DNA of 54,619 bases, taken from Verrucomicrobiota bacterium (GTDB lineage: Bacteria > Verrucomicrobiota > Verrucomicrobiia > Verrucomicrobiales > DEV007). The translations under genes and the position numbers were made by a program. The stretch lies in contig JAHDID010000016.1 in the NCBI GenBank assembly GCA_020630975.1, forward strand, positions 1-54,619. Reading direction: 5' to 3'. Numbering within the stretch: position 1 is the first letter of the stretch; each line of letters starts with the position of its first letter. The notes beneath the pieces were generated by a model, which worked only from the letters and a program-made list of their open reading frames with translations, made no database searches and had not been told where the DNA came from. Below, one piece after another: positions 2,157-42,638 of this stretch.

Positions 2157-2183
2157 AAGCGGTCTCACGAGACCGCTTTTTTT
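2157..2183 (+). terminator. Rho-independent terminator of the DUF4278 gene
   Basis: A perfect 8-bp stem, GCGGTCTC paired with GAGACCGC around a 2-nt apex (in practice a slightly larger loop), is followed by seven Ts. It lies 45 bp after the stop codon at 2112. Confidence 0.92.
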
Positions 2184-2252
2184 CTGTACCGAGCAGAGCC
2201 GACCTCAATGACTCCCGCCTAAAGACCTCCAAGACAGCCAGCCCCCACCTTT

Positions 2253-2972
2253 TTACTGCGAACAGTGCTGAATCGCATTCTGCAGTAACTCAGGAGCCGT
2301 TTTCAGCCCAAGCTTCGCGCGGATGTTCGCTTTGTGCACATCCACAGTCGAGGCAGAGATCTTTAGCTTGCTAGCGATCTGCTTGCTCACCAGACCTGCA
2401 CCGACATACTCATAGATCTCCCGCTCGCGTGCGGTCAGCTTATCCAGCGGCCCACTACTACAGCTCCCTCCTGCCTCAGACACATCAGCACCACACATCT
2501 CAGTGATCACTGTGCGCTGCAGTCGTTTATTGATAAACATCTCACCATCGAGGACCGAGCGAATGCCCTTCAGGATGCTCTTCGTCTCCTCGTGCTTCAT
2601 CACGATGCCATTTGCCCCACTGCGGATAGCCTTAGATACCCGATCGCTTTCCTCTTGGGTCGAAACCACCATCACTGGTATCTCATTCCCCATCTGGCGT
2701 AGCTGCGTGAGCACCTCTAGCCCACAGCCATCGCGAAAGCTGGTGTCCAATATCACCAAATCGGGCTTCGAATTCTCGATGGCCTGCGGCAACCCCTCTG
2801 CACGATCATACTCACCGCACACCTTCAGGTCGCGCTGGTGCTCGATGAGACTACGCATGCCGAGACGCAACACAGGGTGATCATCCGCTATAAATATGCG
2901 GTGAGTCTCTGCGTTCTGGAGTCCCTCTTCGTGCGGTAGTGGGGTTGTAAGAGCTAGTGTGTCTGCACTCAC
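2253..2972 (-). CDS. NarL/LuxR-type response regulator
   Basis: The 239-residue protein has a receiver domain (about residues 24-150) and a LuxR-type helix-turn-helix (about 172-235). The receiver has the acidic pair D30-D31, the phosphoacceptor D76 in DLVILD, the Ser/Thr switch at 105-106 and the conserved Lys at 126. The DNA-binding domain shows LTAREREIYEYVGAGLVSKQIA and STVDVHKANIRAKL, both typical. No Met codon precedes the receiver domain, so the start is the GTG at 2972. No histidine kinase gene is adjacent, so it is an orphan regulator in this window and its partner lies elsewhere. It is transcribed toward the terminator of the DUF4278 gene. Confidence 0.93.
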   Translation of the reverse strand: MSADTLALTTPLPHEEGLQNAETHRIFIADDHPVLRLGMRSLIEHQRDLKVCGEYDRAEGLPQAIENSKPDLVILDTSFRDGCGLEVLTQLRQMGNEIPVMVVSTQEESDRVSKAIRSGANGIVMKHEETKSILKGIRSVLDGEMFINKRLQRTVITEMCGADVSEAGGSCSSGPLDKLTAREREIYEYVGAGLVSKQIASKLKISASTVDVHKANIRAKLGLKTAPELLQNAIQHCSQ

Positions 2973-3039
2973 GTTACTTTTTCAACAAAACTGGCAATAT
3001 TTGACAAGAAAAAAAATGACGTAAAAACGCCTTTGCTCA

Positions 3040-4056
3040 TTATTCCAGCTCTCCGAGGACACACGCGAGCAGTCCCTCGCTATACTGATGGATCTTCCAA
3101 TGGTCTGGGCACCAGCCTTTCAAAAAGCGAGTGAAGTCGCTCCACGCATAAGGATAAAGCTGGCGCCACTCCCTCTCCAACGCATCCAGATCGGTATCTG
3201 GCCACCACCTAGGGACCTCCGCACGCAGCGCTTCAAAATAGCCCGCCAGCAGTGCCTCCTCCTGAGCGGAGCACTGTGTCTCATCTAGGCAACTACCGAT
3301 GAAATACGCCACATCGCGAATACCACAGCCTCGGCCAACATACTGAAAATCGACCGCTGCCACCTGCACCTCCTCTGCACCTCGCGGGGTAAAACAAAAG
3401 TTAGCCAGCTTCGCATCGCCATGGACTAGGGTTTGATACCGCGCCATGCGCAATCGCTCATCGATGGCTTTAGCCTTGGCCTTGATCGGGTCGCCATCTG
3501 CCAGTACGCGCCACTCATCTGGACGGGTATCGAGATGCCAATAAGTACCCTGTGGCCACAGCCCATCTGGCTCTGCACCCAGGAACCGAGCGTGAAAACT
3601 CGCCAACCATCGCAGGCAAGCCAACAGCTCTCCCCCATCGACTCGAGAGCGAGTCTCGCTATAGCCTGCAGCACACAGGTCCTCGATCACCAGAAACAAA
3701 CAATCATCGCTAACCCGATCTCCCAGATACCTAGGAACCCGGCACTCGTCCGGGCACTTCTCAGTCCAGTCGCGATACCACGCCGTCTCGACATGATAGG
3801 ACTGTACCTTGCGCTGATGTGAGAGATCTGTATTCCACCCTCGCGGATGCTGAGCGGCCAGTTCACCGAGCTGTACATGTTTAGCTATCACAGTCGGCTC
3901 TGCTGCGGCCTGGCGGCCCGACAACGCCACTCTGACGATTTCGCCATAGCCACTCCATAGTGTCTGGATCCGCTCAGACCCAGCGATCGACGTGGCTCCT
4001 GTCACTGATAATAAATAATCATCCAGCTCCGCACCGAAGAATTTTGTCTCAGACAT
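3040..4056 (-). CDS. Kinase-like phosphotransferase (APH/CHK-type fold)
   Basis: The protein of about 338 residues has the signatures of the aminoglycoside phosphotransferase / ecdysteroid-choline kinase-like superfamily. There is a hinge [11 protein letters not shown], the catalytic loop [13 protein letters not shown] (Brenner-like HGDxxxxN), and the metal-binding Asp in [21 protein letters not shown]. The VDFQ and G-x-x-D-x-A-Y-F pair is most like the CHK-kinase-like branch. The substrate is unknown and resistance should not be assumed. I prefer the ATG at 4056 (MSETKFFG) over the TTG at 4065. It follows the carboxypeptidase gene by 11 bp and is probably co-transcribed with it and the TPR gene. 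Confidence 0.85.
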
Positions 4057-4067
4057 AACTGGCAAAC

Positions 4068-5021
4068 CTATCGCTGTAGACCATAGCGCAGCAGCGCATC
4101 TGATTCCTGCCAGACTGTGGGAGTCTTGCTCCCGAGGATCACTGCCATCACACTACGGCGGCCATCGGAAGCCGAGGATACCAGACAACGCCCGGCCGCA
4201 TTGGTGAAGCCGGTTTTACAGCCATTACAGTAGGGATTCGTCTTCAGCACTTGATTGGTATTGTAGATAGTCTTGGAGGTGCCGTTGCTGAAGTAAAAGA
4301 CCATAGCCTTTGTCCCGACCGCATCACGGATCGCAGGGCGCTGCATCGCCGCGCGCCCTAGGATGGCCAGATCTCTAGCGGTCGAGTATTGGCCACCAGG
4401 TGTCGGCAGACCACTCGCATTAGTGAAGTAGGAATTATACATCCCGAGCTGGCGAGCCTTATAGTTCATCGCTGTCGCAAAGGCAGGTACCGAGCCTGAG
4501 TGATGCCGTGCCAGACAGCGAGCTATGTCATTACTACTGCGCACCAGCACGGCCTTCAGCAGGTCTCCTTTTCGGTACATCTGCCCGGCCTGGATACCCA
4601 TCTTGGTCGGTTCACACTGAGTATCCGAGTGAGTCACGGTTATGTATTGATTAAGATTCCCTGAGTCTGCGATCAAAATACCAAGGAGCAGCTTCTGAGT
4701 ACTCGCACTGGGCAACCGAGCGTCGGCATTTTTCTCAAACAACACACGCCCTCGGTGATCCACCAAAATAGCCGCCTTCGCCGTTATAGTCGGAGCCCCG
4801 ACACTTGATGGAGGTGGTGTGACCGGCTGCTGGCGCTCAGCCTGCTGCTGGGGGGTCGCAGCCCCTTGGCTCCGTGCCGTTTGACCAGCCGTAGCAGGGT
4901 TGGGCCCAGCCGACTGGCAGCCCACCACGACTAGCGCTACCACAGTACTAACCACAGCCCAGCCTACCCTCTGCAGAGAGCTTGCGATAGATGCTGAATG
5001 TCGGGCAGCCAGGGTGCACAT
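4068..5021 (-). CDS. D-alanyl-D-alanine carboxypeptidase (PBP5/6 family, S11), putative lipoprotein
   Basis: The 317-residue product has the three penicillin-binding motifs: SxxK (S107-T-Q-K110), SxN (S162-S-N164) and KTG (K269-T-G271). These define the S11 DD-carboxypeptidase fold, which trims the terminal D-Ala from peptidoglycan stem peptides. The N terminus has a hydrophobic segment ending in VVGC (Cys at about 35), a plausible lipobox, followed by a Pro/Gln-rich linker (about 45-80). The usual C-terminal beta domain and amphipathic anchor of PBP5 are absent, so the lipid anchor probably replaces them. Four cysteines near the KTG motif (NPYCNGCKT and others) are unusual and could form disulfides. 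It lies between the TPR gene (66 bp upstream) and the phosphotransferase gene. Confidence 0.93.
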
Positions 5022-5087
5022 GGTGGATAACTTGGACGGATAGAGGACTTGGAAATTGTCCCCTAGCCCTGAAAAAAGACAAGCCCC

Positions 5088-5876
5088 TTATCGAGCTGGA
5101 TTTCGCAGCACACTCTCGATCTCTGCATCTGGCCCCATCCCCAGATCCAGCGCGCGATAATAGTGTCTGCGGCCCAGTTCCACTTTTGCAGGCTTTAGGC
5201 TCAGATAAGTTTTAGCCAGATTATAGTGAGCATCCTCATGATCTGGCTCCAGCTCGATCACTCTTTTTAACTCACCGATCGCGGCATCGACCCAGCCATA
5301 CTCATAAGTCACCGCGCCTAGCAGCATGTGCGCCTGGGCTAGCTGCGGGTCCTCATGTATGGCCCTAGTCAGGCTAGATATCGCTAACAGCAGCCGACGT
5401 CCCTGATACTGGATCAGCCCCAGCGTCATCCAGTTGGCAGCTATCCTTGGCTCCAGATCTAGCGACTTTCTCAGATAATTCTCCGCTTCACCCAGATTCC
5501 CAAGCTGATACTCCGCCACACCCAGATTCGCATAGGCTAGAGGATTACTCGGAGCCTGCAAGATCATCTCATTATAGGCACTGCGTGCTGTCTGCCAGTC
5601 GCCACTCGATATCGCCTTGGCTCCCCGCTCGGCAATAGGCTTCAGTTCCGATGGAATCTTTACCGACCCCACCGCCAACTCTGATCTACCGCGCACCGGT
5701 TTCGAGACTGAGGACTTCGGCTCCCCCCCTTTTTTTGACGAAAATCGCAACCCCGCGAAAGGAGCACCGGCCTCCTGGGCCAGCCCCTCAATAGAACCTC
5801 CAAAACAGACTGTCACCGCGCAGATCACTCCCAAAATCGCACGCGCCCTATGTGTGTATCGCATAGAGAGGACCAT
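5088..5876 (-). CDS. Secreted TPR-repeat protein
   Basis: The 262-residue protein starts with a Sec signal peptide (about residues 1-34, ending near GLAQEA) and then a low-complexity Ser/Lys/Gly linker. From about residue 78 it carries at least four tetratricopeptide repeats. The clearest are NPLAYANLGVAEYQLGNLGEAE, RIAANWMTLGLIQYQGRRLLL and DHEDAHYNLAKTYLSLKP. TPR arrays act as protein-binding scaffolds, and the partner cannot be named. It is the first gene of an apparent operon with the carboxypeptidase and the phosphotransferase, which hints at an envelope role. It is divergent from lexA with only 74 bp between the starts, so a LexA operator in the gap could affect both genes. A start at Met5 (5864) is possible. 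Confidence 0.85.
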   Translation of the reverse strand: MVLSMRYTHRARAILGVICAVTVCFGGSIEGLAQEAGAPFAGLRFSSKKGGEPKSSVSKPVRGRSELAVGSVKIPSELKPIAERGAKAISSGDWQTARSAYNEMILQAPSNPLAYANLGVAEYQLGNLGEAENYLRKSLDLEPRIAANWMTLGLIQYQGRRLLLAISSLTRAIHEDPQLAQAHMLLGAVTYEYGWVDAAIGELKRVIELEPDHEDAHYNLAKTYLSLKPAKVELGRRHYYRALDLGMGPDAEIESVLRNPAR

Positions 5877-5917
5877 CTAATCAAAAAAACACTTGCGCAA
5901 GGTGCACTTATTGGCTT

Positions 5918-5931
5918 TGTTTTTGGGAACA
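5918..5931 (+). promoter_or_regulatory. Putative LexA operator (SOS box)
   Basis: TGTTT-TTGG-GAACA is an inverted repeat with one mismatch to the TGTTC-N4-GAACA form described for Verrucomicrobia. It ends 19 bp before the lexA ATG, the right place for autorepression. A separate perfect 10-bp palindrome, CTTGCGCAAG (5892-5901), lies closer to the TPR gene and may be another operator. Confidence 0.68.
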
Positions 5932-5950
5932 CTGTCATTTTTATCAGGAT

Positions 5951-6568
5951 ATGAAGATCACTGCACGCCAACAGGAAATTATCGACTTTTTGCAGTCGGA
6001 ACATCGCCAGACAGGCATCATGCCATCCACCCGCGAGATCCAGGAGCATTTTGGATTCGCCAGTCAGACCGCAGCCGTCAGCCACCTCAAAGCTCTCGAG
6101 AAAAAAGGGATTATCACCCGTCTAGAGGGAAAAGCTAGAGGACTGCGCTTCACCGATACTCTAGCCCGCGAGCCAATCATCGATATCCCAATCTACGGAG
6201 CCATCCCAGCTGGCTATGGCGATGATACCACGCCAGAGTCCGAGGGCTGCCTATCTGTCGATGTGAATTCTATGGGCGTATCTGCTTCAGCAAAGACCTA
6301 CGCGCTACGCGTGCGTGGCGATTCCATGATCAATGCCCACATCATGGATGGTGACCACGTCGTTATCGAACAAAAAGAGCCTCGCAACCACGATGTAGTA
6401 GCCGCCCTCATCGACGGCGAGACTACCCTGAAGCGCTATGTCAAAGACTCAAAAAAATGCTTTCTACGTGCTGAGAACCCGAACTACCCCGACCTCATCC
6501 CTGCTCAGGAGCTAATGATCCAAGGTGTCATGGTAGGCCTAGTGCGTGGTTCGAACGGCGGCTGGTAA
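5951..6568 (+). CDS. lexA: LexA, SOS repressor and self-cleaving protease
   Basis: The 205-residue protein has an N-terminal winged helix (about 1-68, with STREIQEHFGFASQTAAVSHLKALEKKGII) and a C-terminal S24 peptidase domain. The self-cleavage site is Ala87-Gly88 in IPAG. The catalytic Ser125 is in RGDSM and the Lys161 is in ETTLKRY. All expected residues are present, and the length is close to E. coli LexA (202). After RecA-activated cleavage it releases SOS genes. A putative operator at 5918-5931 suggests autoregulation. The ATG at 5951 has only a weak, very close AGGA before it. No recA, imuA or dnaE2 lies in the window. Confidence 0.97.
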   Translation: MKITARQQEIIDFLQSEHRQTGIMPSTREIQEHFGFASQTAAVSHLKALEKKGIITRLEGKARGLRFTDTLAREPIIDIPIYGAIPAGYGDDTTPESEGCLSVDVNSMGVSASAKTYALRVRGDSMINAHIMDGDHVVIEQKEPRNHDVVAALIDGETTLKRYVKDSKKCFLRAENPNYPDLIPAQELMIQGVMVGLVRGSNGGW

Positions 6569-6656
6569 TCCAACACTAGGTCCCCAAACCTGGCCTTCCC
6601 CCGTTCAAAACACACATTTTCACAAGAGGCGCACTCCCTCTCAAAGGGGCTAGATG

Positions 6657-6699
6657 GTTTGGCTATACGCAAAGTTTGCTCTTTAAAGTATAGTCAAAC
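6657..6699. other. Stem-loop in the lexA downstream region
   Basis: GTTTGGCTATA (6657-6667) pairs with TATAGTCAAAC (6689-6699), giving 11 bp with one G-U pair around a 21-nt loop. Only a weak pyrimidine run (CTCTTCTT) follows. It could be an inefficient lexA terminator or a remnant of a repeat element. Confidence 0.4.
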
Positions 6700-6950
6700 T
6701 CTTCTTATCCTGCATCACCGATTCGATCCTTAGTCTGTATTTCGCACCCGAATTAAAGCCAACAACTTTAAGCGAATGGCTCCTCATCACCGGGTAGGTT
6801 AATTTCAGCATAGAACTTTCCTCAGTATCGTCGTTGCGTAGAATCAACAGAGCTCTCAGTAAACTCAGCTTAGGACTAAAACCTGATACTTACTACCTAA
6901 CCATAGGTCTATTAACGATAGCTACCCTACTGCACCCAACGCCTACCCCA

Positions 6951-6970
6951 GAAAAGCAGCCAACGGCTGC
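6951..6970 (-). terminator. Rho-independent terminator (minus strand)
   Basis: Read on the minus strand, GCAGCC-GTT-GGCTGC is followed directly by TTTTC. The 6-bp stem is perfect and GC-rich, but the T run is short. It lies about 80 bp after the stop of the leftward gene at 7053. Confidence 0.6.
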
Positions 6971-7052
6971 CCCAGAAAAATTTTTACTTTTCTAGCAGGT
7001 TTATTCCGAGCGGCGATATCTAGCATGCAAAAAGCACCCTCACTATCACAGG

Positions 7053-7451
7053 CTAGCCAAGGGCCTCAAGCTTCACATCGAACTCAAAATCTCCCCCTAG
7101 TCCGAAATAATTCTGTATAATAGAATCGACCAGACCCTCCGCCTCTAAAGAGGAAACTTCTTGCAGATCATAAGTGCAAAACAAGTCCTTTTCCCAACCG
7201 ACCAGCTTCGCACCGCTTGGCACCTCCACACCATCCTCAGGCAAGATAACGCCTGGCTCCTCTGCATCCAAATATCTAAAGTTAATCTGCCCCGCATGAA
7301 GCTGAATCCAAAATGGAGCACCTGTATCTCCAGCCACGCTCAATTCTAAAGAGATGCACCACTTGCTCCCTTTAAGAGCTATCGACTCCCCACCGACAGA
7401 CTCGGCTATTTTGCGAGCCTCCCCCCTTAATCTTGCGATCATGCCCTCCAT
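7053..7451 (-). CDS. Orphan protein of unknown function
   Basis: The 132-residue acidic, probably cytoplasmic protein has no signal peptide or membrane segment. It begins with an amphipathic helix (MIARLRGEARKIAESVG), followed by alternating strands such as KWCISLELSVAG and APFWIQLHAGQINFRYLD, and ends in a short helix plus strand. I do not recognise the family. The alpha-beta pattern would suit a small adaptor or immunity-like protein, but nothing supports that directly. The ATG at 7451 and the Met at position 4 (7442) are both possible starts. It is followed by a terminator-like hairpin and is probably transcribed alone. Confidence 0.6.
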   Translation of the reverse strand: MEGMIARLRGEARKIAESVGGESIALKGSKWCISLELSVAGDTGAPFWIQLHAGQINFRYLDAEEPGVILPEDGVEVPSGAKLVGWEKDLFCTYDLQEVSSLEAEGLVDSIIQNYFGLGGDFEFDVKLEALG

Positions 7452-7515
7452 AAAAACAAAATAATAAACCTATTAACAATTTCATTCAACTGCGCAACAA
7501 GACTGAAAAACCAGA

Positions 7516-7992
7516 TCATTTAGGGATCAGAGCCTCAAGAAAAAATGACATCTCATCGGAATAATCTGGCAAATCAAGAAACTCTATAAAAAACCTCTTC
7601 CCTTTTGCCTCCCTCAAAAAAGCAAATCTCAAATCACCTTCAGCAGACAGATTTGCTTCTTCTATAAAATTACGTCGATCAAAGTCAGACGCAGGCAGAC
7701 TGTCAGTTTTATACACTATTTCAATCTTACTACCGATTGAAATCCCCCCCTTCAAACACCTCACAACTGTCACATTGTGAACGACTGTCGCGAAAGGCGG
7801 CTCAACATCTTCAAGATCAGTGGCATAAATGCAAACAGAAACAACTGCCGCTGCATCATTGTAGGTTGCTATCAGCCCATCATCATCCCCCAAAAACAAC
7901 CACCTCGGATGATCACCCGAACCAGCCCCATTGGAAAAATAAACCGAGGAAAGCAAAGAGAAAAGTGATATTAGCAACACCTGTCTTTTCAT
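7516..7992 (-). CDS. Secreted protein of unknown function
   Basis: The 158-residue product starts at the ATG at 7992 (MKRQ), giving a clean signal peptide with a Leu/Ser-rich core ending at SNGAG. A GTG at 8016 would add eight residues and is less likely. The mature part has a beta-rich core containing VVSVCIYATDLEDVEPPFATVVHNVTVVRC and a pattern typical of OB-like or beta-sandwich proteins. A charged C-terminal half includes LRFAFLREAKGKRFFIEFLD. The family is not recognised. The gene ends 64 bp before the next leftward gene begins. Confidence 0.6.
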   Translation of the reverse strand: MKRQVLLISLFSLLSSVYFSNGAGSGDHPRWLFLGDDDGLIATYNDAAAVVSVCIYATDLEDVEPPFATVVHNVTVVRCLKGGISIGSKIEIVYKTDSLPASDFDRRNFIEEANLSAEGDLRFAFLREAKGKRFFIEFLDLPDYSDEMSFFLEALIPK

Positions 7993-8125
7993 AAACTTCA
8001 AAAATACATCTTCCACGAAACGACACTTACCAAGACTAACATGAACGTTAGCTCGAAACCAGCTTCAAAGACACTAGATGACCACATCACCCATAAATGA
8101 TGTGCTTCCTAAGGCATAAGAAAAG

Positions 8126-11100
8126 CTAATCCTTGATTGCCTTCAACACTGCAGAGGCTATCTGCTTAGCTGCATCAGGCGTGTATCCACTGTGCGCCCA
8201 AGCGACTTTACCGTCGCGACCTATGACTACCGTGTGTGGGATGCCCTCTACACCAAATAAGCGCCCGACCTTCTGCGTTTGATCCAAGGCGACCGGCATC
8301 TCCCATCCACGCGCCTCTAGGAACTGCTGAACTTCATCAGCACTTTGCCCCTGGTTAACACCCAAGAAAATGACGTCATCACTCGAAAAAGCTGCCATCT
8401 CGGCAATCAATTCGGCAAGCGACCGGATACAAGGACCACACCACGTCGCCCAGAAGTCCAGAACAACCACTTTCCCTAAGTTTTGCCCCAACTCAAACTC
8501 TCCACTATCACCAAGCATAGGCAATTTAAAGTCAGCAGCTTTCTTACCTAGCAAGCTCCCAGCCGCGGCGCCGCCATCGCCACTAGGTAGATCAGGAGCA
8601 GGAGCATATAGCATCTGCCAATCTCTTCCACTAGTCGCGAAGGAATCAGTTGGCCGCATTGCCATAGTGCGAATCGAATACACATCATCCCATGGTATTT
8701 GGCACTTACCGAGACGAGGGTGCGTTCCTGTGATGGCTTTCGACCCGAATTTATCAACATCTAAGAATAACCGACCACCATTTACCAGCTGAAACCAATA
8801 GTTCGGCGTGCCTAGTACCCCGCCAAACTCCGTCTGTAGCGTCTTTGCGATCAGGGCCTGATTATCATCAGTATTTCTGCTATAGAGTATCATGGCGCTG
8901 GCATCGTAAACCACATTGGCACCGCCCTGAAAAAACACTCCGTGACTCGACAGCTCGGACTTGGCCTGCGCACTATTAGAAAAGACTCGACTGGCCAAAC
9001 AATAGGCTACCGTCTCCATCGCATAGCCCAAATCAGACGTGGTTTGCATTGTAGCTAGCCCCTTATCACCTCCAGGTTTCGCTAATTCGACCTCAGAGTC
9101 TTTGGTATCGGGATCCGGCTTTTCTAGCCATACTACGGCCTTCACTCTCTCTTTAGGCAACACGACATCCTCCATACCATACCGAAAGCGATAATGCTCT
9201 GTGGTCGACGCCTCTATCTCCCCCCGTAAAACATCGCCATTTTGAGCAATCAATAAATGACTGGGTAGATCATCACGAAGAAAACGTGGAATGCTCAATA
9301 CCTGCGAACGAACCTCAGCACTCACGGTAGGCAACCCGGGGCTCCCTGGTGGCGAATAGGCCGAAAAGTCTGTAAGCGAAAAATCGCTGACACTATTCCC
9401 CCATAAACTCGCCGGTTCGAAGTAGACTCCCGCTCCGGTTTTCTTTCGTGGGTCTATGGGGAACTGGCAAACCGTCATTCCATCAATCAGGAATACGATT
9501 TTCTTATCCTGAATCAAAAACTTCATCTTAACCGCCCTACCATTCTCGACCTTTATATTGTGATTTCGTTCCATCTGACCTTCCGAAGACTCAACCCCAG
9601 AGTAAACCTGACTTCCCCAATGTCCGATCAAGTAATTGGTCGACTTTTCGGGAGCTCCACCATCGGAGTTAAAACGCACTCGGAGTGTCCCCCTATTCAT
9701 CGAAAAAGCTATCTCACGCGCACGCATCATAGATCCATGCCCAAACACACTACCGGGCTTCAAATCAAGCTTACCTTCAGATGGCGTAGCCCGGCCTTTC
9801 ACCAATTCCCAATCAGAACCTCTAAAGCCACTAAGGTTCAGCTGGGAATCTACACCAAACTGCACAGCTCGGATATCGCCGGCATCGAAATAATCCAACT
9901 CGGTTATACCAGATTTCACACTCACACCAGACTTATCAATAGTACTGATGCGTGCTGGCAATATATCACCATACTGGGTGTAAAGCAGGGCTTCCGCTGG
10001 TTCTGACGGATCATGATCCTTAGAAAAAGCTCGATTGAATGTTGCACCGACTTTCGAACCGATCGTAACTGACCGCTCACTACCGACAAACCTCCACCGT
10101 GGCAGACCTGTAGATGATGGTTCCAGCCTACCTCGCATCGTATGTCCTGAAAATTGAAGCGTATCCATCTTGTCGATTGTCAGCTCCGGCTCCGGCGTTC
10201 CATCATTCAAAATCTGCCTAATCGACGCAAGACTAGCAGTGATAGGCGCCGCAGCAGCACGAGTCTTCAGTGTCATCCGGTCAGCCTGTATCTCGATAAT
10301 CTCTCCTTTCACCAGCGTTCCATCGCTCCAGATTACCTGCATCTCCGCTGGCTGAGGATCGGATTGCTCACCAGAGAAGATTAGCGACTCTATCTGGTCT
10401 AGCCCGACAGTCTCGTTACCTATTGAGATGCCTTCGGCTGAGTTACCGATAGCGGTCGTCGCCAATACCCGTCCATCCAGCAGCTCAATATAAGATTCTT
10501 CAGCATCGACTTCGCGAGACATAGGTATCTGCCCATCCCACTCACTTACACACAGGTGCTTCAGAGTCAGGTCTCGACCTCTATTTTTCAGCAAAATACC
10601 AGCTACGTTATCAGTTTCCCCGGTATCTTCGGGCATGTCCCAGACTGTCAATACTTCTCCGTTTGAGGATACCACAGATACCTGCCTTGCCACTAGATCC
10701 CAGTACAGTTGTAAAGACAACTCTCGATCTTCGCGCCCCAGTTTCAAGACCGACTGAAACTGGTTACCCTTTTTTAGCACTACTTCGTCATCCCAAGTCT
10801 CTATACTGAGCCGCCTACGATTGCCTGGAAGCAATGCCAATTGAAATTCCGGAACATCCTGAGAGGTGATACAAAAATCGACCACCACACGATCAGGAAT
10901 TTCCAAATCCAAGTTTGCCTGACTGTTCCAATACGGTAGCTTCATCCCCCCGTTAGCCACGGTCACGATGGGCAAAGGCGCAGGTGAACCCACTGAGTTT
11001 TTTGGCGACTTCTTCTGACTTTTTTTCACCGCCCAATCCGCCTCGCCATTCGGACCATGATAGCGCAGATTTCCACCGCTTAGCCTGCGGGCATACAATA

Positions 11101-12337
11101 ACTCAGACCGTTTCAAATCCACTCTACCATGCCGACTACTCTTGATTGCCACACTTGTCTCGCTAATTAACTCGATGTCGCCATACAAATGACTACCGTC
11201 GCGCATAACAAAACGAAATGAATCAGGCGCTCGGACCTGATCCACCGGAAAATCAATCCTACGCAAAACATCCCACTTCACAGTGATAGGATCAGATATA
11301 TCAGGTGTCCGCCATGTCACATGGTCTGCTGTCGCTGCCTCTACGGCACCCAACAGGCTCTCCCCATTATTCCAACGGATGGTACTAACAGGCGAGCCAT
11401 CGAATGCCTGGACAGCTCCCTGGTATTGAAGCCATTTTTCCTTAAAGTCACCGCTTAACAATAAAACCGCCTTAGTTTGCCAAAACCTTACCAACTCATC
11501 GTTAGCTGGCCTAGCAAATTTCGTCCTAGCACCTATCCGCCCCTGCTTGACTTTTCTTCTGAGCTGAGCATCCGTCAGGGAGTTTATCAACTCCGCTCCA
11601 ATTTCCGTCTCTGCGACCACATGCTGATCAACCAACGCCTTCGCCAGAGCGTCTAGTTGCTTAGTTATCTCTTCTGGCAGCCTAAGCACTTGTGACATGT
11701 CATAGACCGCGGCTGTTAAAGCAGCATCCATCGGTTTCCGACCTTCTGCCACCCAAGTCTTTAGAAGGTTGTCCGTCTTCTTGCGCAGCTCCACACTATC
11801 CGCTTCCAGTGCCTTCTGCCATTGCGCATCGCGTTCCTCACCTAGAACATTCTTGACGGCGTCCTTCCACTGCGAACGCTTATCGGGCGGCATCCAACCC
11901 TGTACGGTAAACCGCCCCACTAATTCACTAGCTTCAATCTCGTTCACCACAGAAACTCGTGCCTTGTCGCTTCTGTGCATTTTGGCGACCAGTGGCCTGA
12001 CGCTAGCCACGATGCATGGCTGCCAGTCCTTTGCAGCAGCACCTATTACTTTCTCAGCGGCCCGTTTTAATTCCTCAGACTCACTAGGCTCCAGTGCAAC
12101 AGAACTCCCAATCCCCTTGACCACTGTATCCATATACCTAGTCAAGAATTTCACTTGCTGGCGCTCAGCTCTACTTGCCATTTTCTTCAGCGCGACCTCC
12201 ACACTTGGACCGAGAGGCTCTTTCAGATCGGACCGAACCGAAAACGGGCTTTGGCTATAGCCGATACCTACTATACATAAGAGTAACAACGATACTACGA
12301 GAGTCCCACTCGTAAGTTTAGTTCTCGCCGGCATCAT
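8126..12337 (-). CDS. Giant secreted protein with seven short beta modules and a C-terminal thioredoxin domain
   Basis: The 1403-residue protein has a signal peptide (about 1-29) and a helical N-terminal region (about 35-300) related to that of the gene just upstream. It then has at least seven copies of a ~40-residue beta unit with the pattern [N/D]G-x-x-L-x-G-x-[I/V], near residues 322, 379, 620, 671, 789, 1033 and 1186. Two jelly-roll-like stretches (about 470-600 and 835-990) resemble concanavalin-type folds. The C terminus (about 1255-1403) is a TlpA-like thioredoxin with FWATWC-GPC (C1300, C1303) and cis-Pro 1367. It is therefore probably a periplasmic or surface disulfide/thiol protein. 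Its ATG overlaps the upstream stop by 4 bp (ATGA), so translation is likely coupled. Confidence 0.85.
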   Translation of the reverse strand: MMPARTKLTSGTLVVSLLLLCIVGIGYSQSPFSVRSDLKEPLGPSVEVALKKMASRAERQQVKFLTRYMDTVVKGIGSSVALEPSESEELKRAAEKVIGAAAKDWQPCIVASVRPLVAKMHRSDKARVSVVNEIEASELVGRFTVQGWMPPDKRSQWKDAVKNVLGEERDAQWQKALEADSVELRKKTDNLLKTWVAEGRKPMDAALTAAVYDMSQVLRLPEEITKQLDALAKALVDQHVVAETEIGAELINSLTDAQLRRKVKQGRIGARTKFARPANDELVRFWQTKAVLLLSGDFKEKWLQYQGAVQAFDGSPVSTIRWNNGESLLGAVEAATADHVTWRTPDISDPITVKWDVLRRIDFPVDQVRAPDSFRFVMRDGSHLYGDIELISETSVAIKSSRHGRVDLKRSELLYARRLSGGNLRYHGPNGEADWAVKKSQKKSPKNSVGSPAPLPIVTVANGGMKLPYWNSQANLDLEIPDRVVVDFCITSQDVPEFQLALLPGNRRRLSIETWDDEVVLKKGNQFQSVLKLGREDRELSLQLYWDLVARQVSVVSSNGEVLTVWDMPEDTGETDNVAGILLKNRGRDLTLKHLCVSEWDGQIPMSREVDAEESYIELLDGRVLATTAIGNSAEGISIGNETVGLDQIESLIFSGEQSDPQPAEMQVIWSDGTLVKGEIIEIQADRMTLKTRAAAAPITASLASIRQILNDGTPEPELTIDKMDTLQFSGHTMRGRLEPSSTGLPRWRFVGSERSVTIGSKVGATFNRAFSKDHDPSEPAEALLYTQYGDILPARISTIDKSGVSVKSGITELDYFDAGDIRAVQFGVDSQLNLSGFRGSDWELVKGRATPSEGKLDLKPGSVFGHGSMMRAREIAFSMNRGTLRVRFNSDGGAPEKSTNYLIGHWGSQVYSGVESSEGQMERNHNIKVENGRAVKMKFLIQDKKIVFLIDGMTVCQFPIDPRKKTGAGVYFEPASLWGNSVSDFSLTDFSAYSPPGSPGLPTVSAEVRSQVLSIPRFLRDDLPSHLLIAQNGDVLRGEIEASTTEHYRFRYGMEDVVLPKERVKAVVWLEKPDPDTKDSEVELAKPGGDKGLATMQTTSDLGYAMETVAYCLASRVFSNSAQAKSELSSHGVFFQGGANVVYDASAMILYSRNTDDNQALIAKTLQTEFGGVLGTPNYWFQLVNGGRLFLDVDKFGSKAITGTHPRLGKCQIPWDDVYSIRTMAMRPTDSFATSGRDWQMLYAPAPDLPSGDGGAAAGSLLGKKAADFKLPMLGDSGEFELGQNLGKVVVLDFWATWCGPCIRSLAELIAEMAAFSSDDVIFLGVNQGQSADEVQQFLEARGWEMPVALDQTQKVGRLFGVEGIPHTVVIGRDGKVAWAHSGYTPDAAKQIASAVLKAIKD

Positions 12338-14709
12338 TTCGCCACCCTCCTATCGTGATTATCCTTCACCCCACTCCAGTAGTGCCAGGCACTGTCTCCT
12401 TTCCAAAGCTTCCACTGCTTCTCTGATAGGATGGCTTTAGCCTCTGCCTCGGGCACACCTGCCACAGGGATAGTCACCGCATAGTTTCGATAATACCAAG
12501 AGTCTGAAAAATAGTTTCGAATATCCACCCGATAGTCTTGTACGATCTCCGCCACATAGGGCTCTAGCTGCTCCCATTGACCACTATTGATGGAGTATCG
12601 CCTATCAAACTCAGCCATCACAAATACTGCCAACGCCTCGTCCGAGAATGCAGCACGCGCATCGGTCTCCACTTTCCAGGCAGCCTGTTGCGCCTCTGTC
12701 ATCTCCGTTTGTACAGCAGCTTTCCAGACACCTTGCTTAAGAGCGCCATCATTGAGGATGCGCCTTCTATTCGTGTTATTAAAACTTAGCTTATCCAAAC
12801 GTCTCGGCAGCTGCTGCACATCTATTTCGCCGATATGGGAGCGAACATCCTTAGCCCACTGATTCTTGCGCTCTTCTATCACTCTCTCAGAGGCTCCACG
12901 AGCGGCTGTTTCTAGTCTAGAGATGACATCATCAGAGAGCTCTGCGACGCGACCTGCATCATCGACCAATAACAGCATATTCTTTAATACCATGGCTCGC
13001 TCAGCCTTTGTCTTTTGATAAAGATAGTCAGATACTATATGTTCCACAGCCTCTGGCTCAGGATACCTTAGCGATGTAGCACCCTGAATTTCCTGAGGGA
13101 TAAACTTGAGTTTAGCAGCGGTCATTTCCTGAGCCTGCCGCCAGTTCTCCAGCTGCTTTTTATCTAGATATTTTTCTAGATCAGCCTGCTTCACATCCTT
13201 AGCCGCTGCGAAAAACAACCGCACCTGACAGTCCCAATATTGATGGCGTTCTGTTGGAAACAACTGCGTTTGCTCCTTCACGACCTGCTTTGCTAGGGGT
13301 AATAAATTTTCCCGCTGACTATCAGTGAAGGCGACGTGCCTGTCTAGTTCTGCCAGCATCATCATCCCCACAGCCAACTCTCGACGTGCCTTGCGGTCCG
13401 CGTGAGATGACTTGTAGATCTGAAGTTCCTCCGGAGTAAAAATATTCACCCAACTCTTTTTCCAGACAGGATCATTGTTTAGCAGGTTGCTTTCATCGAA
13501 TCTAAAGTAGTAAGTGCGTTTCGACTTTTTATACTCTTCTATCCGCTCACGGATCGCCCCAACCCTCTCATTTTTGATCTGCTGTAGGGCGGTTTCTCGC
13601 CAGACCGCTTCGGCACGCTCGATTGTCTCCTTCACTTCTTGATCTAGCGCTTTAGCTCGCTCAGATGGCAGAGAATTCACAGCCAAGAGATCGGTGACTT
13701 CTTGTTCCATCTGTTTTTTCGAGATTGCCTGAAACTGAATGAAAGACGGTTGCAGAAATTTGAGCCAGTCTTTCTCTAGGAGCTCCCTAGTAGCCTCTCT
13801 CTCTTGTTTAAATTTAGCCATTTCATCGGGCTGTAAGACCTTTCGAAGAGTGCTCAACCACTGCTGAGCGGACAGCGGATCCGTATCAAGTTTTGTTGTA
13901 TTGTAGATCTTATTCCTCTTTATATAGTCAGCACGGCGTTCATCGGTCAAAAAGGTCAATACCTCTTCTGCACGTCTCCGCTCATCTAGGCAAATGCGTT
14001 CGATAGTAGCGCTCGAACTGGCTGAAAGTTGCTCAATTTCCTCCATATCCAGATCGAGTATTTGGCTCATTTCCTCGATCTCGCTTTTCATGAGATCGCT
14101 GGCCCATTTGCGGTAGGTGGTCTCCCAAGGATCGAGTAAAAGCTTTATCTCTTTTGTCTTCGTCTCGCGAAGAGTTCCGACATACTCACCCCAAATGGCA
14201 TACTGGACAGCTGAGAGATGCGTCTCGAGTGCTGCCTGCCATAGTGGCTGGTCTTCCGGTAGGGTACAGCCCAATACCTGCCGATTAAGAGCAATAGACT
14301 GCACTGACCACCCGTCGATAAAAGAAACCAACTGGTCGACCTCAGCCGCTGATAGTTTTTTTTGAGGTTCTTTCACCAGTCGTACGCGATTGGTCTCAGT
14401 CACCGATTGAGCGAATGGTTTCATAGCCTCGTCGACAGCCTGGTCAGCCGCTTTCTTTAGATCGGCCTTTTTCTCAGGGTCAGTCAGATCCGTCTTCTCC
14501 ACCAGCATATCGAGGCGAGCCGTCATATGGGACGACAAATTTGCCCGCCGCAGCGGCACTATCTTTTTGGTAAACTCAGCCAACGCAGCCTCCACTGTCG
14601 GATGCAGAGGCTGTTTAGCACGCACCCACCAAGGCTCGCGAGCAGACTGCTGCTCAGCGATAGCCGAACTGAGCCAGACAATCGATAGAATCCAAGCGAC
14701 AAACTTCAT
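12334..14709 (-). CDS. Large secreted helical repeat protein
   Basis: The 791-residue protein has a clear signal peptide (MKFVAWILSIVWLSSAIAEQ) and is then almost wholly charged alpha-helix. It is built from several diverged modules of roughly 150-180 residues. A recurring block reads LAELDRHVAFTDSQRENLLPL and, again near residue 700, VMAEFDRRYSINSGQWEQLEP. Modules end in a short 'L-x-x-x-Q-x-x-x-W' turn (LDKKQLENWRQ, LSEKQWKLWKG). The LT-x-x-Q-like core resembles periplasmic sensor/adaptor helices, but I do not assign a family. Its first ~170 residues align with those of the downstream 1403-residue protein (shared LxPxVExAL and LKxAA). It sits 9 bp after the DUF4175-like gene. Confidence 0.8.
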   Translation of the reverse strand: MKFVAWILSIVWLSSAIAEQQSAREPWWVRAKQPLHPTVEAALAEFTKKIVPLRRANLSSHMTARLDMLVEKTDLTDPEKKADLKKAADQAVDEAMKPFAQSVTETNRVRLVKEPQKKLSAAEVDQLVSFIDGWSVQSIALNRQVLGCTLPEDQPLWQAALETHLSAVQYAIWGEYVGTLRETKTKEIKLLLDPWETTYRKWASDLMKSEIEEMSQILDLDMEEIEQLSASSSATIERICLDERRRAEEVLTFLTDERRADYIKRNKIYNTTKLDTDPLSAQQWLSTLRKVLQPDEMAKFKQEREATRELLEKDWLKFLQPSFIQFQAISKKQMEQEVTDLLAVNSLPSERAKALDQEVKETIERAEAVWRETALQQIKNERVGAIRERIEEYKKSKRTYYFRFDESNLLNNDPVWKKSWVNIFTPEELQIYKSSHADRKARRELAVGMMMLAELDRHVAFTDSQRENLLPLAKQVVKEQTQLFPTERHQYWDCQVRLFFAAAKDVKQADLEKYLDKKQLENWRQAQEMTAAKLKFIPQEIQGATSLRYPEPEAVEHIVSDYLYQKTKAERAMVLKNMLLLVDDAGRVAELSDDVISRLETAARGASERVIEERKNQWAKDVRSHIGEIDVQQLPRRLDKLSFNNTNRRRILNDGALKQGVWKAAVQTEMTEAQQAAWKVETDARAAFSDEALAVFVMAEFDRRYSINSGQWEQLEPYVAEIVQDYRVDIRNYFSDSWYYRNYAVTIPVAGVPEAEAKAILSEKQWKLWKGDSAWHYWSGVKDNHDRRVAK

Positions 14710-14718
14710 ACCAAACGT

Positions 14719-17700
14719 CTAGGGGGCATCACGGGTTGCCTCCAAGTTATTAAAATAGGCATCCAGACCACGGCTAAACTCGGCTGGAAACTCGCTCCCT
14801 GCACGCCCCGTCCCTCCATCCACTGATCGCAGAGGCATAGGGGATAGCGTATCCGATCCTGGTCCGATATCGGCCAATGCCGCGAGAGATGCCGTCTCTG
14901 CTGTGCCGCCGCCGCCAGGCGATCCACCACCACCACCTCCGCCGCCGCCACGCTTGGCCTGCAGCAATAGCTCGATCGCCTCCGTCTCAGCCGCGATGGC
15001 AGGATCGCCAGTGTCAGGAGACTCTAGGATAGCCTGCGCCTCTATCATCACAGATGACACCGTAGCAAGTAGGCTCAACTCCTTAGCAAATTTCTGCTTC
15101 CCCAGTGGTATAGCCTGGATGTCCGATATAGCAGACTCGATATGCTCGATGATATCGCCTTGCTTAGTACTCAGCGCCCCCGCACGAGCGGTATACTTTT
15201 CCCCCTTCAGTGCGGGCTTTGTATTCTCCAGCTCTCTAGTCTCATCGCGGAGTTGCATCTCATCATGCAAAGCTTGTACTACCTTTAATACGATCTCCGG
15301 AGGCAGACTGTCGCCACTGCAGCTAGAGCAGGACTTACAATTACTAGCGGCTACCAATTCTTCCGCCCAGCGATCTAGGGTATCTGCCCAATACTCACAT
15401 CCGATCATGCCCTGCCCAGTCAGATTAGCAGGCACCTTTTCACTACCACGTGCCAGGGCCGCGACGATCTGCATATCCTGCATCTCATCGAGTATATTTT
15501 TGTAGCGAGCGTCCTGTTTCCGGTGGAAATACGCCCGCAGATCCCCCTGGATCACCCGCACGATTTCGCTTTGAGCTTTACCCTTTTGCTCGATCTCATC
15601 TGCAGCAGGGACCTCGGCACTTTTTATCCCAAAAGAGGTCAGAGTATTTCGACCGATATCCTTAGCAAGGCCCATCTGCTCACGCGACGCCAGTTTCAGG
15701 CGTTTCACAAAGGTGCTAGTCTCCAGACTCGCTAGTATCTCGCTGAGCTGGTCGGCGACTGCAGCGAACTCAGCTAACAAATCGTGCTGATCTGCTAGCG
15801 CTTGGTCCATCGTCTCCTGGGCTGGAGACTCTGCTGGTCGAGGAGCCTCCTCGCTATCACTCTCCTGCCCCGGCGCAGCCGCCATCTGAGTAGTCGGCAG
15901 TTTCAGTTTACCTCCCCCCGGGGGCTTAGGACCGCTAGGCTTCGCTTCCGGAGTCTCCATATAGCCGGACTCACGATCCGAGATACTAGGTGCTGCAGGC
16001 TTGGCCCCTGCGGCAAGCTCCTTGTTGGTAGCAGCCTCACCAGCCACAGTTTGACTAGGGCTAGATTTCTGCCCCGTCGCTAGCTGTGGCGACTCCACTC
16101 CGGGAGCTGCAGCAGCTCGCTTTAGTTGATCTGCCACACTAGGCATCCGGTTGGCAGCGATGTCCTGCAGGGTCTGCAGCATAGTCGCCCATGACTCCAG
16201 TCGCTCTGCGTCGAATTCATCATTCTTGGTCGCTTGCTCGACTAGATTTCTGCCCGATCGAGTCAACCCATTCATCCGAGCTGCCTGAGCGACCTCTGCG
16301 GCAGCCTGCTGAGACACACGTCGGCGGTTTTCCGGGCGATCTAGGTCGAGAGCCGACAAAACTCGTAGCTCCTTATTTGTCTGATACAGGAGTTGCTCGC
16401 GCTCATAGCTCTCCTTAGCGCTACTCAGCCACTTGCTGAACTGATCAGTCAGCCACAGCGCGTGCTCGGTCTTATCGACGATCTGCAGGACAAAAGTCGA
16501 CGACCGAGAGCGCTCGCGCGCTGGTAGATAGTCCTCAGCCCACAAGCGCACCTCCAGCGTCTGCGGGCTGATGCCTTCCCGACTGGCACAAAAGGTCGCT
16601 CGCGTATCGATCTGTTTCATCTTCGGTGCGCCGCTAGCGGCCAGCCTCTCACCACGTATCGGCGTATCGCTATCCGCCTGTATCAGCTCACCCTCCCACT
16701 CCACGCCTATGTTCTTGATGCCGAAGTCATCTTCGGCGTCTATGTCAAAAGTGATCACCTCCGATTCTAGCACTACCAGCTCTTGCGACTCCCGCCGTGC
16801 AGAAATCGTCGGCGCTTCGTCAGCCACAGCGAGTAGCCGTACACTCAAAGGTTCACGCGGGGACAAACCATAGTGATCGGTCCAGGCAAAGCTTTTATCC
16901 ACATCTTCTGTGACCAGCTCATACGGCGTGATGATAGCGTCTCCAGACACCTGCTGCGGCACGCCATCGAGCTCCGCTGCGGATAACTCTCTATCTGTCT
17001 TTGCCTCGAAAGAAACTGCCGCCCCCTCCACCACGCTCACGGTCGTCCCCCGCACCTGCAGCTGAAGCTCCTCCGAGTACTCAAGATAAGCTGGCAGCCG
17101 GAGGCGAACAGCGATATCGGTCAACTCAGGCCGTGTACGAGGCTGCACCAAGATGGATTTCCTCACATCTCCCAGTGCCATACGCATCGCTACGTCGGTC
17201 TTTTGCGGGGGAAAACGAAAGTGATACCCCCCATCCTCAAGCTGAGTGTAGATCCTAGCCTGCTTTGCGATTCGCCCGCTACCTGCTACAGGCGACCATT
17301 GGGTAGAGTCGGCTAGTCTCACCTGCTGCCCAAATGGCTCCGCATACGGCACCACCCTAGCCTCGGGCAAAGACTCCACCCTAGCGAAGGTGAAACGATC
17401 AACCTGCTGCCAGGGAGCAATCCACCGCGCCATCGTATTCCACGCGGCTTCACTGACAAAAATAAAACCAATCACAGCGATACCTAGTACTAAGCCAGCT
17501 GCCCACGACCACTGCAGGTGCCTCGGATCTGGCACCGCCTCGGCCAAGTCTCGATCCTGCACCGCATCCGCAGCCTGCTCGATCGCCGCATCGACTAGTG
17601 TGCTACTCTGGCCCGCCACATCAGATCCCATCCTAGCCAACTCTACGATTCCTAGCAGCTGATCACCCAGCCGAGGTAATTTTCGACGTATCAGACGAGC

Positions 17701-17967
17701 CGCATCCTCGAGCTGTCGCTGTTTCCACACCCAGCGATACCACTTCAGCGGCAGGCCCAATCCCAGCGCCAACGCACCGCAGCCCAAAACCAGCAGCCGG
17801 AGCCAGGCAGGCGTCTCCATTACCCGATCCAGCGCGAAGATAATCAAATAAGATAGAGCTAAACAAAAAATGGCTGCAAGAACTGCCTCGGTCAGCTTGA
17901 TCACACGCACTCGCTTGCGATAATTCGCTAGAGTGGATTCGAGCTGTCGTGGCAACTGAGATTTCAT
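14719..17967 (-). CDS. DUF4175-like large membrane protein
   Basis: The 1082-residue protein has two adjacent transmembrane segments near the N terminus (about 27-47 and 55-72) and a third near 155-172. A large periplasmic beta-rich region follows (about 190-490), with Ig-like units such as DIDAEDDFGIKNIGVEWEG. After this comes a long helical, Gln/Glu-rich part (about 500-960) containing a low-complexity Pro/Ala linker. The C-terminal part has a nine-glycine run. This layout is that of the DUF4175-type proteins found in PVC and alpha-proteobacterial genomes, often next to MoxR/BatA genes. No MoxR, DUF58 or Bat gene is in this window. It is the first gene of a three-gene operon with 9-bp and -4-bp junctions. 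Confidence 0.78.
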   Translation of the reverse strand: MKSQLPRQLESTLANYRKRVRVIKLTEAVLAAIFCLALSYLIIFALDRVMETPAWLRLLVLGCGALALGLGLPLKWYRWVWKQRQLEDAARLIRRKLPRLGDQLLGIVELARMGSDVAGQSSTLVDAAIEQAADAVQDRDLAEAVPDPRHLQWSWAAGLVLGIAVIGFIFVSEAAWNTMARWIAPWQQVDRFTFARVESLPEARVVPYAEPFGQQVRLADSTQWSPVAGSGRIAKQARIYTQLEDGGYHFRFPPQKTDVAMRMALGDVRKSILVQPRTRPELTDIAVRLRLPAYLEYSEELQLQVRGTTVSVVEGAAVSFEAKTDRELSAAELDGVPQQVSGDAIITPYELVTEDVDKSFAWTDHYGLSPREPLSVRLLAVADEAPTISARRESQELVVLESEVITFDIDAEDDFGIKNIGVEWEGELIQADSDTPIRGERLAASGAPKMKQIDTRATFCASREGISPQTLEVRLWAEDYLPARERSRSSTFVLQIVDKTEHALWLTDQFSKWLSSAKESYEREQLLYQTNKELRVLSALDLDRPENRRRVSQQAAAEVAQAARMNGLTRSGRNLVEQATKNDEFDAERLESWATMLQTLQDIAANRMPSVADQLKRAAAAPGVESPQLATGQKSSPSQTVAGEAATNKELAAGAKPAAPSISDRESGYMETPEAKPSGPKPPGGGKLKLPTTQMAAAPGQESDSEEAPRPAESPAQETMDQALADQHDLLAEFAAVADQLSEILASLETSTFVKRLKLASREQMGLAKDIGRNTLTSFGIKSAEVPAADEIEQKGKAQSEIVRVIQGDLRAYFHRKQDARYKNILDEMQDMQIVAALARGSEKVPANLTGQGMIGCEYWADTLDRWAEELVAASNCKSCSSCSGDSLPPEIVLKVVQALHDEMQLRDETRELENTKPALKGEKYTARAGALSTKQGDIIEHIESAISDIQAIPLGKQKFAKELSLLATVSSVMIEAQAILESPDTGDPAIAAETEAIELLLQAKRGGGGGGGGGSPGGGGTAETASLAALADIGPGSDTLSPMPLRSVDGGTGRAGSEFPAEFSRGLDAYFNNLEATRDAP

Positions 17968-19054: not shown

Positions 19055-19786
19055 TCACATATTTCGCCACTTCGATAGGGCACTGCTGGGAGATTGGCGA
19101 ATGGTTGGTTCAGCTTGAGTGGCAATGACTCGCCCGTCTGGAGAGATGATGACTAGCTGCGGCATGGCATGGGAGCCGTAGCGAGCGGCTAGCGAAGCAC
19201 TATCGCTGGAACGCGCCCCGGATGTGGTGAGCCACGGCATGGAGTAACGCCTAGCGTAGTGCGCCTTTTCGCCCTGCGAATTATCAAGGCTAACCCAGAC
19301 AACTTCAAAATCGTCGCTGTGTTGATTGCGAAAATCAACCAACTGTGGTGTGAACGATGCGCACGGAGCACACCAATGAGCTGCAAAGTAGATGCCTACA
19401 TATTTGCCCTGTAGTCGGCTAGGTGGCACGCTGCGGCCCGCTAAATCGGTGAGGCCCTGCGGAAAAAGGCTGGATGTCGACGCCACACTGCCGGAGCCCG
19501 AAGGAACTGGAGCTGATCGACCAGAGTTGGCAACTTCCTGAGTGCTACCAGGTACGGGCGCTGGAAATCTCGGGACGGCATCGCCACCACCGCCACTATT
19601 GCTAGAGCTCTCGCTGCTCGTATGGCTTTGAGGAGCCTGAGTACCACTCTCCCGAGGCGCAGGGGTGTCGGCCCTAGCATCGTTTTCCCAAGGTGGCGAA
19701 ACATCTTCGCCTCCGCCACACCCACTGAGCACCAGAGAGATCGCGATGAGAAACAGAAATGGATAGTAGTGGGAGTCTTCTTTCAT
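19055..19786 (-). CDS. Thioredoxin-like lipoprotein (tryparedoxin/nucleoredoxin type)
   Basis: The 243-residue product has a lipoprotein signal ending in LSGC (Cys23) followed by a Gly/Ser/Pro-rich tether (about 24-105). The thioredoxin domain (about 110-243) has the active site W138-C-A-P-C142, and KYVGIYFAAHWCAPC is typical of the thioredoxin_8 / tryparedoxin group rather than classic thioredoxin. It probably works on disulfides at the outer face of the inner membrane or in the outer membrane. The cis-Pro lies in the AMPQLV motif. The gene follows the cyclo-ligase gene by 68 bp in the same direction. Confidence 0.9.
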   Translation of the reverse strand: MKEDSHYYPFLFLIAISLVLSGCGGGEDVSPPWENDARADTPAPRESGTQAPQSHTSSESSSNSGGGGDAVPRFPAPVPGSTQEVANSGRSAPVPSGSGSVASTSSLFPQGLTDLAGRSVPPSRLQGKYVGIYFAAHWCAPCASFTPQLVDFRNQHSDDFEVVWVSLDNSQGEKAHYARRYSMPWLTTSGARSSDSASLAARYGSHAMPQLVIISPDGRVIATQAEPTIRQSPSSALSKWRNM

Positions 19787-21743: not shown

Positions 21744-23465
<1,722 letters not shown>

Positions 23466-23525
23466 CCTGTCTGATAAAAGATAAAGGTTGGCTCCGGAGA
23501 AATGGTGCCGTGGGTGGGCTAAAGC

Positions 23526-42566: not shown

Positions 42567-42638
42567 ACTTTTAGCAAGGTATGAAACAAGCTGGCGTTTG
42601 CTTAGGTACCGATGTGCGGGAGTATTCGAGGTAGAGCT

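Follow-up and report, generated by a model that had tools for sequence, protein, structure and literature searches.

A three-gene envelope operon of a Verrucomicrobiota bacterium as a possible derived copy of a MoxR-linked operon family

The window, a stretch of 54,619 nucleotides from a Verrucomicrobiota bacterium (contig JAHDID010000016.1, assembly GCA_020630975.1), contains on its minus strand three consecutive large genes, designated g1, g2 and g3, whose open reading frames (ORFs) encode 1082, 791 and 1403 aa and are all intact. With moderate confidence, this trio is regarded as a derived copy of a MoxR-linked envelope operon of Verrucomicrobiota, which would be the envelope part of a maturation system driven by MoxR. 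What was obtained directly is the homology, gene order and co-occurrence, the absence of a fourth gene (X) that relatives carry between g2 and g3, the fusion of a g2 module to g3 and the placement of the copy in the trees away from the own lineage. The three genes are:

14719..17967, minus strand: g1, a predicted inner-membrane protein of 1082 aa, distant DUF4175 relative (ORF, hydropathy and HHalign)
12334..14709, minus strand: g2, an all-helical protein of 791 aa with three related modules of ~250 residues each
8126..12337, minus strand: g3, 1403 aa; from the N-terminus, a hydrophobic segment, a g2-like module, beta modules and, last, a thioredoxin domain

A gap of 9 bp (14710-14718) separates g1 from g2 and an overlap of 4 bp (12334-12337) joins g2 to g3; the original prediction, which described a three-gene layout with 9-bp and -4-bp junctions, is borne out by the ORF coordinates. 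The family was described from the neighbourhoods of the best 80 of 133 g1 relatives in named genomes, and its genes were counted by six-frame searches with hidden Markov models (HMMs) built from the same loci, so that matches there occur by construction. Downstream of g1, 7.5 kb or more of sequence was available at 50 named loci; g2 was identified in 48 of them, X in 48, g3 in 46 and all three in 46, the exceptions being L152 and L183, with g2 and X and no g3 in range, and L156 and L158, with none of the three. Looking from the other end, the 56 named loci with g3, whatever the length of their flanking DNA, contain X in all cases and g2 in 54, and the order g2-X-g3 is found in 54. The genes are conserved together, as the earlier prediction expected, and therefore one system is likely; what does not stand is a self-contained complex of three, since X and the MoxR side belong to it as well.

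The full operon order is MoxR-DUF58-BatA-VWA-like followed by g1-g2-X-g3. The four MoxR-side genes, counted in the fetched stretch on either strand (a few loci are divergently oriented), are all present in 23 of the 46 named loci whose upstream DNA extends over 7.5 kb or more. Pfam confirms MoxR (AAA_3), DUF58 and BatA for representatives, and the DUF58 protein is above the cut-off for VWA_2. The window contains none of MoxR, DUF58 and BatA (family HMMs, E <= 1e-5) and no X beside g1-g2-g3; the statement that no MoxR or Bat genes accompany the trio thus holds beside the window copy and is misleading for the family. X is a probable alpha/alpha-toroid protein, judging from weak matches (SQHop_cyclase_C for the L099 X, E 0.0048, under the cut-off; no Pfam match for the L093 X at E <= 0.1) and from a relative on contig C31 of the same genome. 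Record titles of the loci are mainly of Verrucomicrobiota, with L176, L188 and L191 labelled Planctomycetota, and were not relied on because the copies from some metagenome-assembled genomes with the title 'Akkermansia muciniphila' (L142, L171) cluster with those of Prosthecobacter.

In five shorter-type operons (L113, L114, L115, L131 and L132) X is followed not by one g3 but by two or three separate genes of g3-like type. Neither g2 nor, in the g3-like genes, a [WFY]CxxC motif was identified in these five, the g3 HMM stopping before the thioredoxin end; in L115 a WCVTC protein does lie upstream of g1, but it is not of the g3-like type. The thioredoxin was considered as a core part and rejected on this absence. 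The core of the family seems to be formed by the MoxR-side genes, g1, X and the beta-module protein, with g2 and the thioredoxin as additions of the long type.

A paralogous operon was identified in the own genome (L229, G000:C31:122000-141999, 2168-17661). It starts with a LacI regulator, a glycosyl hydrolase, MoxR, DUF58 and a 325-aa protein, and continues with BatA, a VWA-like gene, a DUF4175 protein above the Pfam cut-off in the g1 position, a protein of 805 aa that matches no Pfam family and a toroid protein resembling squalene cyclases. This last, X-like protein is above the cut-off of the squalene-hopene cyclase domain (PF13249, 35.7 bits). The operon fits the core theme of MoxR side, DUF4175 and toroid.

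Co-occurrence was scored in 112 genomes of the order of the window organism, with match tiers of identity and E-value set after inspection of the table; weaker paralogous matches under these tiers are found in many of the remaining genomes. A long- or middle-type g1 is present in 74 genomes, weak g1 matches in G061, G095 and G098 being scored absent and fragmentary partner matches in G062, G078 and G086 being scored present. The VWA-like gene was identified in 73 of the 74 genomes with g1 and in 2 of the 38 without it, and X in 74 of 74 and 1 of 38 (Fisher p 9e-26 and 7e-29, values that overstate the co-occurrence because the genomes are related). Within genus g14, of 22 genomes, both partners are present in all 13 with g1 and neither in any of the 9 without it. 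Across the 112 genomes g1 tracks the VWA-like gene and X even when unlinked, and in the own genome BatA and the VWA-like gene lie on contig C121 and a complete g1-g2-X-g3 set on the separate contig C149.

The N-termini of g2 and g3 in the window are related. A genome search with g2 already finds g3 (E 6.9e-10, over g2 residues 23-275), and in HHalign the first module of g2 (module A, residues 20-275) aligns with g3 residues 1-320 over 243 columns, at a probability of 99.9 and E 6.7e-31. Module B reaches 93.6 % and module C 7.8 % (no match), with at most 3.3 % in 16 column-reversed profile comparisons. The relation, put at ~170 residues in the earlier claim, survives profile comparison and is thus real, and it is larger.

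13885..14652, minus strand: g2 module A (residues 20-275), the g2 module closest to the g3 N-terminus (HHalign)
11507..12247, minus strand: g2-like module on the g3 N-terminus (residues 31-277), from the g2-module HMM and tree

An HMM of the g2 modules identifies this element only in the window among 107 g3 ORFs (E 3.4e-56; some records are counted under two locus ids), and most other g3 align from about residue 295-320 of the window g3 onward, near their own start. The sharing is therefore read as a fusion specific to the window copy. An original g2/g3 pair with a common module was also considered and rejected, none of the other g3 ORFs carrying it. In the tree of module A the g3 N-terminus groups with the g2 of L145, L152, L183, L186 and L196 (support 99), and the window g2 with L133, L138, L169, L179 and L096 (support 99). 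The approximately unbiased (AU) test rejects the g3 N-terminus with the window g2 (p 9e-67) and with the L133/L138/L169/L179/L096 group (p 0.0013), these groups having been named after inspection of the tree. By its closest relatives, the g3 N-terminal module appears to derive from another g2 or operon subtype and not from the window g2. Four of these loci (L145, L152, L186 and L196) have at least 7.5 kb upstream and present no MoxR-side gene.

The g1 of contig C149 is ~44-45 % identical to the window g1 and groups with copies of the same genus. The window g1 stands in the tree beside L133 (support 99; 65 % identity), in a set with L138, L139 and L163 (support 100) and away from L093 of the own genome; the tree of the g3 body places the window in similar company (support 98). 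Same-genus matches to the window g1, within the 74 family genomes, reach at most 48 % identity at full length and 52 % for C-terminal segments. Because g1, g2 and the g3 body group with Verrucomicrobiaceae/Chthoniobacteraceae copies and not with the complete set of the own genome, the window copy was probably acquired horizontally from a donor of that type. Gain as a block is the simplest reading; an ancient duplication followed by loss elsewhere and a binning error are the less simple alternatives. No second close X was identified in the own genome, other X-like proteins being at most 34 % identical to the X of C149. At L094 (398-7657), two g3 genes in tandem (1278 and 1134 aa) lie beside the g1 that is closest to the window g1.

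In the mechanism proposed for the family, a cytoplasmic MoxR ATPase and VWA-type partners would remodel or load an inner-membrane/periplasmic complex, in which g1 would serve as anchor in the membrane, g2 as a helical scaffold whose modules vary in number and X as a toroid-shaped partner. The g3 protein would bind clients in the periplasm, and its thioredoxin might keep cysteines of client or partner reduced, a step that would be accessory to operons of the long type. The window copy would have been gained horizontally and then have lost X and received the extra helical module on g3, which, as a guess, may replace contacts normally made by X. It would either use the unlinked MoxR-side genes and X of its genome or have a new client. 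A stronger form, in which the family is a widespread, undescribed MoxR-powered periplasmic machine and the window contains a rewired, acquired copy with the toroid dropped, a module from a different scaffold subtype joined to the beta-module/thioredoxin protein, no link to MoxR and a new client, is put forward only tentatively.

Several observations weigh against the derived-copy reading and its parts. The MoxR coupling is inferred by analogy with MoxR/VWA pairs; of the 46 loci with 7.5 kb or more of upstream DNA, 23 are without any MoxR-side gene in the vicinity, and the fourth MoxR-side gene matches VWA (E 0.0019) and GATase1_like (E 0.0014), both under the Pfam cut-offs. L156 and L158 contain g1 and no g2, X or g3 nearby, and the window is the only locus with g3 and without X among the 80 named loci, the window and L093. 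In the co-occurrence table, G090 has g1 without a close VWA-like gene, G065 a VWA-like gene without g1 and G098 both partners without g1. The trees are 'quick' trees: for module A the tool warned of two long branches that meet, one of them the g3 N-terminus, and the window g1 branch is long (0.61 vs 0.071 for its sister), which could mean decay or misplacement. Finally, the GC content and profile give no signal of horizontal transfer, the window not standing out.

The long g1 branch would also suit a decaying duplicate, a redundant second copy on its way out, as would the missing X and MoxR side and the complete set on C149. This is rather improbable, because the three large frames are intact and the window keeps 183 of 187 g1 columns invariant in relatives (21 relatives), 10 of 11 in g2 and 36 of 39 in the g3 body. 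Compared with L094, uncorrected and with pS near saturation, the proportions of nonsynonymous and synonymous differences (pN/pS) are 0.23/0.75 for g1, 0.43/0.78 for g2 and 0.42/0.77 for g3, pN being below pS in all three genes. With its intact frames, kept columns and this excess of pS, the window copy looks maintained.

A second explanation, close to the original prediction of a periplasm-spanning disulfide or sensing machine, is a stand-alone periplasmic system for thiol-disulfide exchange or redox sensing, where the g3 thioredoxin exchanges electrons with a cysteine motif of g1 and no ATPase takes part. The two elements are:

15319..15339, minus strand: g1 CxxCxxC motif (C877, C880, C883), from the alignment of 39 g1 proteins
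8165..8548, minus strand: ResA/TlpA-type thioredoxin of g3 (residues 1264-1391) with a WCGPC motif, from Pfam and structure match

The WCxxC thioredoxin is present in 85 of 87 g3 ORFs longer than 900 residues, CxxCxxC is held by the window g1 and its nearest relatives, and no MoxR-side gene lies beside the window copy, all of which would suit such a machine. However, C877 and C880 are each found in just 22 of the 39 aligned g1 proteins and C883 in 17 (two of the 39 are gapped at the site and six are of the shorter type), and nine long-type g1 lack the motif although their operon has g3. A redox coupling of g1 and g3 as a rule was rejected on this patchiness. The g3-like genes of the five shorter-type operons are without the thioredoxin, so redox chemistry seems not to be core and the disulfide machine of the original prediction is weakened. 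Across genomes, moreover, g1 follows the presence of the VWA-like gene and of X. This explanation is considered unlikely.

Also unlikely is a re-purposed copy, in which the version with the fusion and without X would work independently of MoxR on a new client. The absence of X, a module from another g2 subtype and a fast but constrained evolution point to it, as does L119, which is another set without X and g1. Nothing was found that bears on the identity of a new client, however, and BatA, the VWA-like gene and one X are encoded at other places of the genome, from where they could act in trans. The L119 set (G025:C46, 7013-12611) has the order g2-g2-g3, and the same genome also contains a g1 on its own (L117) and, at L118, a set with the order g2-g2-X-g3.

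An artefact of assembly or binning, the contig or the g3 fusion joining pieces of different organisms, is very unlikely. In its favour, the assembly comprises 158 contigs (95.8 % complete), the window g1 is closer to copies of other families than to those of its own genus and the fusion was seen once. Against it, an entire module is fused in frame to the body of g3, near the point where other g3 proteins start, the nearby sigma-70 and DnaG genes look ordinary and GC shows no jump, points that only lower the probability of a chimera. The derived copy of the MoxR-linked operon is retained as the preferred reading, and its proteins are described below.

The g1 protein presents three hydrophobic segments by hydropathy (residues 20-51, 52-76 and 151-178), all within its first 180 residues, and a Gly-rich stretch near the C-terminus. 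By profile-profile comparison (HHalign) it is a distant DUF4175 relative, matching over 403 columns of the membrane-proximal region at 99.4 % (E 5e-22) with 0.4 % in two reversed controls; the DUF4175 side was built from the 9 of 14 DUF4175 loci with frames longer than 300 residues. Among 22 g1 proteins no DUF4175 (PF13779) match was found at E <= 1 and no significant Pfam family at all (best E 0.016), and neither g1 nor g2 of the window matches NCBIfam. The name DUF4175-like given in the earlier prediction is thus upheld by the profile comparison, with the Pfam and NCBIfam HMMs silent on the window protein; because the score stays under the Pfam gathering cut-off, g1 is named DUF4175-like and not a member of the family.

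The three modules of g2 are related to each other (A-B, E 2e-13 over 115 columns; B-C, E 5.5e-23 over 208; A-C, E 1.3e-10 over 174). The AlphaFold2 model is all helix, with a mean predicted local distance difference test (pLDDT) score of 85.3, and the protein starts with a signal-like stretch that is under the hydropathy threshold. The window protein has no significant Pfam family (best E 0.0064 among 23 members), and the fold search gave nothing significant (Foldseek best E 1.4; VIA-align best Z 7.1, a value that could reflect no more than a common arrangement of helical proteins). No new fold is claimed for g2, since this search is uninformative. Spy/CpxP (LTXXQ) gave no Pfam match at E <= 10 in eight modules or short g2 proteins, a search in which the HMMER filters drop weak matches.

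The N-terminal hydrophobic segment of g3, identified by hydropathy, is likely a signal peptide. The model of the g3 body (mean pLDDT 82.2) comprises repeated small five-stranded modules, two beta sandwiches flanked by them and the C-terminal thioredoxin; the small modules are read as SH3-like from their strand pattern. The sandwiches are:

10541..10921, minus strand: first laminin-G-like beta sandwich of g3 (~residues 473-599), from the model strand pattern and Foldseek
9341..9772, minus strand: second laminin-G-like beta sandwich of g3 (~residues 856-999), from the strand pattern, with laminin/neurexin LNS matches over several modules

In Foldseek, g3 matches LG chains of laminin (5mc9, for example, at E 1.4e-9) and LG/LNS chains of neurexin; the template modelling scores (TM-scores) over whole chains are low in both cases (0.09/0.16 for the laminin match). 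The thioredoxin end, the only Pfam match in the three window proteins, was correctly recognised by the earlier prediction (AhpC-TSA, E 2.5e-21; Redoxin, E 7.6e-20). Foldseek and VIA-align agree on its ResA/TlpA type, VIA-align superposing it on ResA 2h1b over 137 residues (Z 21.3, root-mean-square deviation 1.7). A secretin-like piece ahead of it has one weak match (E 0.042) and is not claimed.

The surroundings of the operon look like core chromosome, because genes for a sigma-70 factor (regions 1.1 to 4) and for DnaG primase are found nearby (21744-25358). A second thioredoxin-family protein (TlpA/ResA-like, 243 aa, 19055-19786) is encoded on the strand of g1, ~1.1 kb upstream of it. Further away are an AIPR-domain protein (29156-31147, PF10592, E 1.8e-23), a name associated with phage abortive infection, and a 1135-aa protein with ThuA, DUF7133, HEAT and cytochrome c matches (39237-42644). 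A scan for promoters and terminators gave counts at the shuffled level.

MoxR/Bat operons are common and their targets poorly known, and this family links them with large periplasmic proteins of a defined set. Of these, g1 was scanned in 22 relatives and g2 in 23, with no significant Pfam match for either. The joint absence within genus g14 offers a ready genetic test of the ATPase target, and the window copy provides a natural experiment, in which a machine of this kind lacks its toroid protein.

No description of the operon was recognised in the open-access literature searched. The MoxR-vWA ternary conflict systems (Kaur et al. 2020) share MoxR and VWA-type proteins with the full operon, whereas a PADLOC search for anti-phage defence matches none of the five proteins given (E <= 0.01); the main text of PMC7159879, in the portion covered, does not mention BatA, DUF58, thioredoxin, prenyltransferase or squalene. 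The ResA/TlpA/CcmG thioredoxins are like the C-terminal domain of g3, but in g3 the domain ends a beta-module protein of 1094 residues, in front of which the window adds the helical module. DUF4175 proteins are similar to g1 in the profile match and in the position of their member on C31, and differ in that the scanned g1 proteins lack the Pfam match; a studied member, AdvA of Acinetobacter, is a cell-division protein (PMC7481262, in part).

The Bat (Bacteroides aerotolerance) operons resemble the full operons of relatives, which begin with MoxR (AAA_3), DUF58 and BatA-domain genes, and are unlike the window copy, which has none of these alongside. The proteins g2, X and g3 are not known to be Bat components. 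Deletion of bat in Leptospira gave no growth or oxidative-stress defect (PMC3557215, in part). The MoxR/VWA maturation chaperones such as NorQD differ in that the abstract describing them names no counterpart of the large periplasmic proteins g1-g3 (PMC13036017). These pairs remodel clients and insert metals (PMC13036017, abstract; for the general mechanism also PMC3893208, in part), and a MoxR ATPase with a VWA partner remodelling a client would, by analogy, be the likely principle of the operon family as well.

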